This document shows positions 9,487 through 11,055 of a DNA stretch of 64,000 bases, one piece after another. Numbering within the stretch: the first letter of the stretch is position 1; each line of letters starts with the position of its first letter. The notes beneath the pieces are model-generated. The model worked only from the letters and a program-made list of their open reading frames with translations. It had not been told where the DNA came from and searched no databases. This stretch comes from Stenotrophomonas maltophilia. GTDB lineage: Bacteria; Pseudomonadota; Gammaproteobacteria; Xanthomonadales; Xanthomonadaceae. The position numbers and the translations under genes were made by a program. Where the stretch lies: assembly GCF_023518235.1 (NCBI RefSeq), contig NZ_CP090423.1, forward strand, positions 186,001 to 250,000. Reading direction: 5' to 3'.

Positions 9487-9545
9487 GCGCGCATTGTGCG
9501 CGCCCGGGCCGTGCAGAGGGGGTCAGTGCAGCCGTGCGGCAGCGC

Positions 9546-9587
9546 CGGGGTCAGAGCCCTTTGCCACGCAAAGGGATCTGACCCCGG
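9546..9587. repeat. Palindromic intergenic repeat (GGGGTCAGAGCCCTTT family)
   Basis: Arms 9546-9563 and 9570-9587 are complementary except for one mismatch, with a 6-base loop. The element matches those at 11017-11055 and 26968-27006. It lies between the ABC exporter and the AhpD-like gene, just beyond the latter's stop codon. Confidence 0.78.
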
Positions 9588-9593
9588 TGAGAA

Positions 9594-10043
9594 TTACGGC
9601 AGCGGCGGCAGCAGGCCGGCACCCAACCGGTTCCAGGCATTGATCACCGCAATGCCCATGCTCAGGTCGCTGATGCCTTTCTCATCGAAGTGCGGGGCCA
9701 GCGCATCGAACGCGGCCTGTGACGGCGCGCCGTCGGTCAGCCGGGTCAGCGCCTCGGCCCAGCCCAGCGCGGCACGCTCGCGCGCATCGAAGAAGCGGCT
9801 TTCGTGCCACGCGGGCAGGGTATCGAGCTTGCGCGGCTCGATGCCCCCCTTGCGCAGCGCGGTGCCGTGCATGTCCATGCAGTAGCCGCAGCCATTGAGC
9901 TGGGATACGCGCAGGAACAGCAGTTCCATCAGGGTCGGGTCGATCGAGCTGTCATGCACCGCCTTGCTGGTGGCCAGCAGGCCCTTGAAGGCCTCGGCGG
10001 CCAGGCGGGTGTACGGGACGCGGGGAGAGGCGTGGTCGGACAT
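9594..10043 (-). CDS. Carboxymuconolactone decarboxylase/AhpD-like protein, 149 aa
   Basis: The AhpD core motif is present: C52-G-Y-C55 followed by H59, in LNGCGYCMDMH. In AhpD these residues form the redox-active CxxC and proton relay used against peroxides. The protein is single-domain and cytoplasmic. The ATG at 10043 has GGAG seven bases upstream. The gene is directly downstream of an ECF41-type sigma factor. ECF41 sigma factors are known for adjacent genes of this family, and both genes here carry the same promoter motif. Its substrate is unknown; detoxification of a reactive metabolite or peroxide is the likely role. Confidence 0.9.
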   Translation of the reverse strand: MSDHASPRVPYTRLAAEAFKGLLATSKAVHDSSIDPTLMELLFLRVSQLNGCGYCMDMHGTALRKGGIEPRKLDTLPAWHESRFFDARERAALGWAEALTRLTDGAPSQAAFDALAPHFDEKGISDLSMGIAVINAWNRLGAGLLPPLP

Positions 10044-10079
10044 TTTCGGCTCCACGGCAGCCACGATGGCCGCCTTTCA

Positions 10080-10976
10080 CTACCAGGACGCCGCAGCACC
10101 CTCGCGCGTGACAACCGTCGGCAGCTTTTCCGGATTCAGCACGCTGTAGAGGTTGGCGATGCGGCCATCGATCACTTCGATGGTGGTGACCGAGTGCAGG
10201 CGATCACCGATGAAGAGCAGGATTGCCGGCTCGCCGTTGACATAGCCCAGCTGCGCCGGATGCACCGCCCCACGGCGCGCGATCGCCCAGAACAGGCGGC
10301 CGATGCGCTCGGCGCCCAGCAGCGGGCGGATCGCGGCGGTAACCACGCCACCGCCGTCGGAGACCAGCAACGCGTTGGCGTGCAGCAGGACCTGGATCGC
10401 TTCGCTGTCGCCGCGCTGCGAGGCCTCCATGAAGCGCGCCAGCAGCTGCCGGTGCTGGCTGGCGTCGGCGTTGAAGCGCGGCCGCCCGGACTGCAGGCGT
10501 TGTTTCGCGCGGTGCACCAGCTGCCGGCAGTTGGCTTCGCTGTGGCCGATCAGGACGGCGATCTCGCGATAGTCGTGGTCGAAGGCTTCCTTCAGCAGGA
10601 ACGCGGCGCGCTCTTCAGGGCCGAGCTGCTCGAGCAGGGTCAGGAAGGCGACCGAGACATCGTCGGCCAGCGCATGCAACTGGGCCGGGCCGGGGGCCGG
10701 ATCGGGCTCGAGGGTGACCGCCAGCGGCTCAGCCAGCCATGGGCCGACGTAGTGCACGCGCTCGCGCCTGGCCGCGCGCAGGCGGTCCAGCCCGAGCCGC
10801 GTGGTGGTGGTGACCAGCCACGCCTCGGCGTCGCGGACGCTGGCCGGGTCGGCGCCGGACCAGCGCAGCCAGGCGTCCTGGACCACGTCTTCGGCATCGG
10901 CGCGGCTGCCGAGCAGGCGGTAGGCCAGGGCCATCAGGCGCGGGCGGTGGGTCTGGAAAGCGGTTTCGATGTTCAT
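10080..10976 (-). CDS. ECF41-family RNA polymerase sigma factor (SigJ-like), 298 aa
   Basis: A sigma-70 region 2 (residues 5-75, with DAEDVVQDAWLRW) and region 4 (105-160) are followed by a fused C-terminal SnoaL-like domain of about 130 residues. This is the hallmark of ECF41, which has no separate anti-sigma factor and uses this domain for control. Group motifs are recognisable: WLAEP (80-84) for WLPEP, DGGG (207-210) and NPEKL (281-285) for NPDKL. The ATG at 10976 lies only 9 bases after the -10-like CGTC, so the mRNA may be almost leaderless, which fits the missing Shine-Dalgarno. A much longer antisense frame over the fumarase gene is a shadow. Confidence 0.92.
   Translation of the reverse strand: MNIETAFQTHRPRLMALAYRLLGSRADAEDVVQDAWLRWSGADPASVRDAEAWLVTTTTRLGLDRLRAARRERVHYVGPWLAEPLAVTLEPDPAPGPAQLHALADDVSVAFLTLLEQLGPEERAAFLLKEAFDHDYREIAVLIGHSEANCRQLVHRAKQRLQSGRPRFNADASQHRQLLARFMEASQRGDSEAIQVLLHANALLVSDGGGVVTAAIRPLLGAERIGRLFWAIARRGAVHPAQLGYVNGEPAILLFIGDRLHSVTTIEVIDGRIANLYSVLNPEKLPTVVTREGAAASW
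10087..10113 (-). promoter_or_regulatory. ECF41-type promoter of the AhpD-like gene
   Basis: On the minus strand TGTCACG (10113-10107), a 16-base spacer and CGTC (10090-10087). This matches, from memory, the ECF41 consensus TGTCACA/CGTC. It lies in the last codons of the sigma gene, whose TAG stop is at 10082-10080, and would start a leader of about 40 bases before the ATG at 10043. Confidence 0.75.
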
Positions 10977-10985
10977 GTTGACCAG

Positions 10986-11012
10986 GACGCCGGACAGGAA
11001 TGAACCGTGACA
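10986..11012 (-). promoter_or_regulatory. ECF41-type promoter of the sigma factor gene (autoregulation)
   Basis: On the minus strand TGTCACG (11012-11006), a 16-base spacer and CGTC (10989-10986). It has the same two boxes and spacing as the promoter at 10113-10087, while the spacer sequences differ. The ATG follows 9 bases after CGTC, implying a very short or absent leader. Confidence 0.75.
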
Positions 11013-11016
11013 GAGG

Positions 11017-11055
11017 GGGGTCAGATCCCTTTCCGCTGGAAAGGGATCTGACCCC
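11017..11055. repeat. Palindromic intergenic repeat (GGGGTCAGATCCCTTT family)
   Basis: Perfect long arms: GGGGTCAGATCCCTTTCC and its complement around the loop GCT. It is the cleanest copy of this family here. It separates the divergent sigma factor and fumarase genes and begins next to the sigma promoter. Confidence 0.8.

Follow-up and report, generated by a model that had tools for sequence, protein, structure and literature searches.

An ECF41-type sigma factor gene and a neighbouring COE gene, each preceded by its own copy of an ECF41 promoter motif, were found in the window analysed here, 64,000 nt of Stenotrophomonas maltophilia DNA (NZ_CP090423.1, positions 186,001–250,000). The reading that we consider probable as a whole, judging from sequence comparisons, is a two-gene ECF41 circuit with two promoters, in which the sigma factor mRNA would be leaderless and the COE mRNA would be led by a hairpin with a stabilizing role. 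All of the positions below are those of the window.

The sigma factor and COE genes and their neighbourhood

The sigma factor gene (10080..10976, minus strand; ATG at 10976–10974 and stop codon at 10082–10080) encodes a 298-residue ECF41/SigJ-like protein, the C-terminal part of which appears NTF2/SnoaL-like from the fold matches of a structure model. Regions 2 and 4 were recognized by Pfam (PF04542, E 1.5e-15, and PF08281, E 1.7e-13 respectively), and the protein scored above the curated cut-offs of TIGR02957 (SigX4; 329.1 bits against 323.25) and PRK09636.1 (SigJ; 313.2 against 271), both of which we take to be models of ECF41 factors. Mycobacterium tuberculosis SigJ (PDB 5xe7) was the closest solved structure both by sequence (residues 6–286) and by fold, the comparison being one of proteins. 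A structure model built from a 21-sequence alignment (mean pLDDT 73.8 and pTM 0.52) had SigJ as its top fold match with a TM-score of 0.41, and ketosteroid-isomerase/NTF2-like folds followed lower in the match list over ~120–135 columns. Judged from secondary structure, these matches probably fall on the C-terminal part, as would be expected for a SnoaL-like domain. The WLPEP linker motif reads WLAEP in this protein, with Trp80, Leu81, Glu83 and Pro84 invariant among the 21 aligned proteins, the consensus of which is WLPEP. Taken together, the curated models, the best solved relative and the fold matches support the assignment as an ECF41-type factor. The first-pass annotation had proposed an ECF41 factor with a SnoaL-like C-terminal domain, and this proposal is supported by the same matches, although Pfam itself matched nothing, SnoaL included, in the C-terminal part.

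The COE gene (9594..10043, minus strand, with its ATG at 10043) encodes a 149-residue CMD (carboxymuconolactone decarboxylase)/AhpD-like protein by profile matches (PF02627) with a CxxC motif at residues 52–55 (C52-G-Y-C55), in agreement with the AhpD-like target named earlier. The genes adjoining the pair encode an ABC transporter and a fumarase, with no separate anti-sigma gene. Within its own genome the sigma factor gene gave a single match at E 1e-30 or better, and its best-named relatives were from Stenotrophomonas (95% in S. pavanii).

Two similar palindromes with 18–20-nt arms (GGGGTCAGATCCCTTT...) bracket the two-gene unit at 9545–9587 and 11017–11055, the latter lying four bases from the −35 box of the sigma factor promoter; from their sequence they look like a dispersed repeat. 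A plasmid search returned only a match of 14% coverage, to a Streptomyces record.

Two copies of the promoter motif

The pattern TGTCAC-N15..18-CGTC occurs exactly twice in the window, both times on the minus strand, at 11012–10986 and 10113–10087, and each copy is TGTCACG-N16-CGTC, just as the first-pass annotation had described. The upstream copy, the putative promoter of the sigma factor gene itself (−35 element TGTCACG, 11006..11012; −10 element CGTC, 10986..10989), leaves 9 nt (10985–10977) between CGTC and the ATG. The other copy (−35 element TGTCACG, 10107..10113; −10 element CGTC, 10087..10090) lies across the last codons of the sigma factor ORF, ahead of the ATG of the COE gene, of which it is the putative promoter; both pairs of elements were found by motif scan and are kept in relatives. 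The published ECF41 consensus (TGTCACA-n16-CGTC with a spacer of 16±1, in the available part of Wecke et al. 2012, PMC3426412) fits both copies apart from the last base of the −35 element, which is G here and A in the published motif. It had been suggested that the boxes are the constrained part of the promoters. The boxes are indeed kept, but the conservation extends further, as both copies read CGGCGTCCTGGT, with shared letters reaching past the two boxes, and the CT following CGTC is widely kept in relatives.

The number of motif matches alone is no more than expected by chance. Two or more copies were reached in 15 of 100 shuffles of the window (0.70 expected), and the proposed genome-wide search with spacers of 15–17 found 20 matches, against 33 for a reversed control pattern. 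It is place and conservation, not count, that set the pair beyond chance: both copies are kept in place across species, including loci whose COE promoter is not within the sigma factor ORF. We thus regard chance matching in a GC-rich genome as a hardly credible source of the two copies and, on this comparison, as refuted in substance.

Besides the pair, 18 matches were present in the genome, and for 17 of them a mechanical ORF (110 aa or longer, either strand) contains the match. One of these 17 (G000:C1:1606527-1606553) is a TGTCACG-N16-CGTC 15 nt ahead of a 343-aa ORF that looks LysR-like by eye, and its fixed promoter-to-ATG pattern, in strict form, was unmatched in 14 relatives; the 18th match lies 107 nt ahead of a 343-aa ORF. 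A wider regulon in this genome was set aside because 17 of the 18 extra matches are inside ORFs and the LysR-like case is unmatched in the relatives.

The sigma factor promoter and a predicted leaderless mRNA

For comparison we used 157 related loci, 57 taken from the search listings (L021–L077) and 100 fetched from those listings (L111–L210); they are a selection from the listed matches, and matches with in-frame stops were omitted. We call 'genus-like' the 71 loci with a sigma factor identity of ~69% or more (70 from the genus, and L077 from another genus). The strict motif was present before the sigma factor gene in 68 of these, at a distance from the ATG of 8 nt (27 loci) or 9 nt (41 loci), and the remaining three have CGTCAC as the −35 element with a gap of 8 nt by eye. 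Among the 61 loci at 55–68% identity the gap was 8 nt in 14, 9 nt in 42 and 31–33 nt in four, and one locus (L187) has a GGTCAC −35 element with a gap of 9 nt by eye. Overall, at identities of at least 55%, the distance from CGTC to the ATG was 8 or 9 nt in 124/132 loci (68/71 genus-like and 56/61 at 55–68%), the other eight being the four with 31–33 nt and the four with an altered −35 element. In the 25 more distant loci we found a gap of 9 nt in three and of 23–30 nt in four, and the strict motif was absent in 18. In other species, too, each of the two copies keeps its place, which agrees with the expectation that orthologous loci would keep the motif.

Counted from CGTC, the ATG opens at the ninth nucleotide when the gap is 8 nt and at the tenth when it is 9 nt, the ninth then being a C in 82/86 loci. 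An SD (Shine–Dalgarno)-like 4-mer preceded the sigma factor gene in only 1/127 loci with a gap of 8 or 9 nt, compared with 96/133 COE leaders. In S. meliloti, transcription from an ECF41 (RpoE9) promoter starts 9 nt after the same motif, according to the available part of PMC3616915. Because of the short gap, the missing SD and this start site, the sigma factor mRNA should be leaderless, and this is the simplest reading of the sequence and of the analogy: its predicted start is the A of the ATG (10976) or the base before it (10976..10977, minus strand), leaving a leader of 0 or 1 nt, the one-nucleotide leader being possible as the ninth nucleotide at a gap of 9 nt is a C. The earlier suggestion that the mRNA is perhaps leaderless is strengthened by the gap of 8–9 nt together with the missing SD, the start itself being a prediction.

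Such an arrangement does not appear to be obligatory, as eight of the 157 loci, and those of the sister family f12 with a downstream COE gene, have longer gaps. Family f12 was represented by 24 loci, 15 of which have a COE gene downstream in the same direction; the sigma factor gap in these was 25–31 nt in the 14 that were readable, and 14/15 carried an SD-like 4-mer. Six others have the COE gene upstream (L245, L252, L257, L261, L262 and L265; the −35 element is CGTCAC in the last-but-one pair of this list), with a gap of 9 nt in 6/6 and an SD-like 4-mer in 2/6. The remainder were L251 (gap 24 nt, COE gene inverted), L263 (gap 29 nt, no CMD match) and L264, from which nothing was read. Five loci came from outside the order: the gap was 9 nt in L246 and 8 nt in L247, L249 has in-frame ATGs at 8 and 32 nt, and the motif was not found in L248 or L250.

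An alternative is that the sigma factor is usually translated from a message with a leader, made from an upstream promoter or by read-through, and that the ECF41 motif gives a minor product. Several promoters per gene are common, and the absence of an SD is by itself no proof of a leaderless message, since only 1/8 of the longer-gap loci among the 157 has an SD-like 4-mer and seven do without one. The retention of a gap of 8–9 nt over 55–100% sigma factor identity would, however, be hard to explain were a message with a leader the rule, and SDs are carried by most of the longer-gap loci of f12; we therefore hold this alternative to be improbable. Weak predicted folding at the sigma factor start (mean −1.97 compared with −11.57 kcal/mol in later windows) was set aside as evidence for a leaderless message, because the eight longer-gap loci also fold weakly there.

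The COE promoter in related loci

The COE promoter was found in 135/157 loci (133 by the strict and two by a relaxed pattern), giving 125 distinct leaders. The 22 loci without it comprised five with no CMD match, 14 with the COE gene upstream and no motif, and three (L037, L044 and L046) with a CGTCAC element missed by the pattern. In the 66 genus-like loci with a strict copy inside the ORF, third codon positions in the spacer vary (frequency of the commonest base 0.52–0.76), the boxes being constant by the way in which the rows were selected. The other five genus-like loci were L037 and L044 and three (L027, L062 and L113) with the copy outside the ORF; in these three, the sigma factor and COE genes are separated by 678–698 bp containing an ORF (about 160 aa, 52–53% GC), and the C-terminal end of the sigma factor differs. 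In many other loci of the family the COE promoter lies in an intergenic stretch, and thus coding constraint cannot account for its conservation. The ninth nucleotide after CGTC is G in 124/133 COE leaders, and the eleventh is A in 130/133. From the conserved G and the analogy with S. meliloti, the COE mRNA is predicted to start at 10078 (minus strand).

Some further observations were made on these loci. The intervening ORF of L113 matches Imm26 (PF15428, 25.3 bits against 23.3). By eye, COE genes upstream of another ECF41 paralogue share ATTGGTG ... CAAC ... instead of the TGTCAC promoter (L047, L049, L050, L194, L196, L199–L202, L205, L207, L209 and L210, and the six f12 loci L245, L252, L257, L261, L262 and L265). 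Several genomes of the family (for example G380, G244, G156, G371, G189, G157 and G186) contain sigma factor matches with one or two internal stops, which may be decayed copies or have shorter C-termini.

A putative conserved stem–loop in the COE leader

Downstream of the COE promoter, comparison of the leaders revealed a putative 5′-leader stem–loop, GGCGGCCA-tcg-TGGCTGCC (10056..10074, minus strand), which would follow four unpaired nucleotides from the predicted 5′ end. It is followed by an SD-like GGAG (10050..10053, minus strand), and the SD lies outside the stem. A perfect 6-bp stem starting at nucleotides 11–15 was found in 119/135 leaders and in 0/135 of the sequences on the sigma factor side; 100 dinucleotide shuffles of the leaders averaged 9.0 and reached 16 at most. 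The best stem is separated from CGTC by 10–14 nt in 133/135 leaders, and by 11 or 12 nt in 126/135; L166 and L206 have no stem at the usual place. The 135 leaders are related sequences, near-identical ones included, and these counts are not independent.

Covariation was analysed in an alignment of 90 distinct leaders, with relaxed rows, L166 and duplicates omitted. The 7-pair stem was paired in 93.2% of cells, a figure biased upwards as the rows were chosen for having the stem, and the changes on both sides of a pair are stronger evidence than this percentage: six of the seven pairs changed on both sides, with 30 double-change cells compared with 9.5 in shuffled alignments (0/500 as high). At the six inner pairs, G.U outnumbered A.C by 25 to 5 cells, and by 18 to 5 after the sigma factor proteins had been clustered at 80% (one-sided p 0.005, not fully tree-corrected). 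As G.U and A.C changes are equivalent in duplex DNA, the excess of G.U speaks for a transcribed RNA. This count omits the outermost pair, at which A.C is frequent, as the stem of many loci stops short of it; over all seven pairs the numbers were 26 and 19. The inner pairs are nearly invariant (88/90 for two of them), and the distance between the arms is 5 nt in 83/90 rows, 6 nt in six and 4 nt in one. The fold energy of the present sequence is not extreme (z −1.75, with 10/200 shuffles as good).

Where the COE gene is displaced by 678–698 bp (L027, L062 and L113) or inverted (L146, L154 and L162), its promoter is still followed by the stem, and L203 keeps it with other letters and one mismatch. 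A stem of 5 bp or more is present in all 15 f12 loci with a downstream COE gene (6 bp or more in 12), separated from CGTC by 10 or 11 nt, these counts being without a shuffle control. The stem is lacking behind the COE promoter of L251 (f12, with the COE gene upstream and inverted) and of L246, a locus from outside the order. Covariance-model searches of class (369 genomes) and phylum (398 genomes) samples gave only marginal matches outside the order (E 0.0016 or worse), under strict filters that lose weak matches. In its own genome the combined promoter and hairpin model was unique (65.7 bits, with the next match at 18.6). One relative (G022) has an unlinked second CMD gene (CxxC motif CAHC) behind a TGTCACG-N16-CGTC promoter (G022:C3:425431-425490); in this single case (L233), which the search detected with an E value of 7e-4, CGTC is followed after 10 nt by a stem with 7 bp and a 7-nt loop, its letters being quite different, and thus the regulon can elsewhere exceed one COE gene.

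Another match within the genus (L223) was set aside as it is without the TGTCAC promoter. A search of the stretch against Rfam gave six matches with E values of 1 or less, each well short of its gathering score and none at the hairpin. An intrinsic terminator was discarded because no U run follows the hairpin by eye.

Possible functions of the hairpin

By analogy, the hairpin most likely works as RNA and shields the COE message from attack by RppH and RNase E at its 5′ end. Stem–loops at the very 5′ end hinder both enzymes elsewhere (PMC3997798 and PMC7509114, as far as their available text goes), which makes a stabilizing role the first choice, with effects on translation or early elongation as rivals. 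Alternatively, the inverted repeat could be an operator, bound as DNA by a dimeric repressor or activator. Operators just downstream of start sites are common, a DNA-binding protein could equally require the nearly invariant inner pairs, the repeat lies at an almost constant distance from the promoter with its arms mostly 5 nt apart, and the excess of G.U over A.C shrinks once the outermost pair is included. The two-sided changes, the G.U bias at the six inner pairs (p about 0.005 after clustering), the rows in which the arms are 6 or 4 nt apart, and the retention of a stem with different letters in L203 and L233 speak against an operator, which we consider distinctly unlikely.

As RNA, the hairpin may instead act on translation or early transcription, through pausing, promoter escape or ribosome standby, or it may be a binding site for a regulator. 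The hairpin ends only a few nucleotides before the SD here (10056 compared with 10053), it would form with RNA polymerase still near the promoter, and the conservation of its core letters suggests more than pairing. The SD, however, is outside the stem, and the fixed feature across the loci is the place of the stem, after 3–4 unpaired nucleotides from the predicted 5′ end. A position a few unpaired nucleotides from the 5′ end is that of known 5′ stabilizers. A role other than stability is thus a serious possibility that we do not favour, and protection of the 5′ end is the reading used in the model below.

Comparison with known systems

ECF41 factors are widespread (PMC3426412). In the available part of that study (Wecke et al. 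2012), COE genes are the sole detected targets, all linked CMD proteins have a CxxC motif, and the motif precedes both genes in 20% of the loci in which the sigma factor gene is upstream of the COE gene. With the motif, the neighbour and the double promoter already published for ECF41, the basic circuit is known in kind. The Bacillus licheniformis and Rhodobacter sphaeroides systems share with the present one the C-terminal extension, the CxxC-containing CMD neighbour and target, the promoter and, sometimes, a motif before both genes; unlike here, according to the accessible text, their COE messages have leaders of 22/23 nt with an RBS. The word 'leaderless' occurs 0 times in the available text of Wecke et al. 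2012 (PMC3426412), and that text describes no leader hairpin.

Sinorhizobium meliloti RpoE9/SMb20029 (PMC3616915 and PMC6180224) is similarly an ECF41 system with a single COE target, the same promoter and a start 9 nt on, but with one promoter, in the portions of these sources available. The E. coli ompA-type 5′ stabilizers (PMC7509114 and PMC3997798), in the parts accessible, have a stem–loop near the mRNA 5′ end ahead of the RBS, as is predicted here, whereas the present stem is tied to the promoter and targets of one sigma factor. Our literature search, mostly of work outside subscription journals, found neither a leaderless ECF41 sigma factor message nor a CMD-leader hairpin, and the sole paper that it found with both 'ECF41' and 'leaderless' was the S. 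meliloti map (PMC3616915), the available passages of which do not link the two.

A proposed model of the two-gene circuit

In the circuit that we propose, the sigma factor would be restrained by its own C-terminal domain until activation, a restraint known for the ECF41 family; to our knowledge, the input signal of ECF41 factors is not known. Once activated, the factor would start transcription before its own gene, giving positive feedback, and also at the copy in its own last codons, leading to expression of the COE gene. The sigma factor message would begin at the AUG, leaderless and with no SD. The COE message would run from G10078 with 5′-GAA(A), followed by the GC-rich stem–loop (10074–10056), the GGAG (10053–10050) and the AUG at 10043. 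The hairpin would protect the 5′ end of the COE message, and the two messages would differ in how they are read and how they decay. A two-gene circuit in which the sigma factor drives itself and its partner had been proposed at the outset, and it is supported by the conservation in place of both promoters, dependence on the sigma factor being predicted. The promoters, their conservation, the gap of 8–9 nt, the missing SD and the covarying stem are read directly from the sequence; from them we infer the start sites, the sigma dependence, the leaderless translation and the stabilization.

More tentatively, and as something close to an even call, we suggest that one sigma factor, through a promoter placed to the nucleotide, sets up two regimes of translation and decay, a leaderless message for itself and a protective hairpin for the enzyme, and that the hairpin would represent a new kind of RNA element, so far seen in two families within the order to which the genus belongs, with leaderless ECF41 messages recurring in several families. 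If this is true, stress could act differently, via ribosomes and RNases, on the feedback and on the output of the switch. The wiring of the circuit can be read to the nucleotide, and it predicts two mRNA ends. If right, the circuit would also contribute a small RNA element for which no Rfam family reached its gathering score in the stretch searched, and its two genes would offer a natural setting in which to ask why a regulator is leaderless and its target hairpin-capped.
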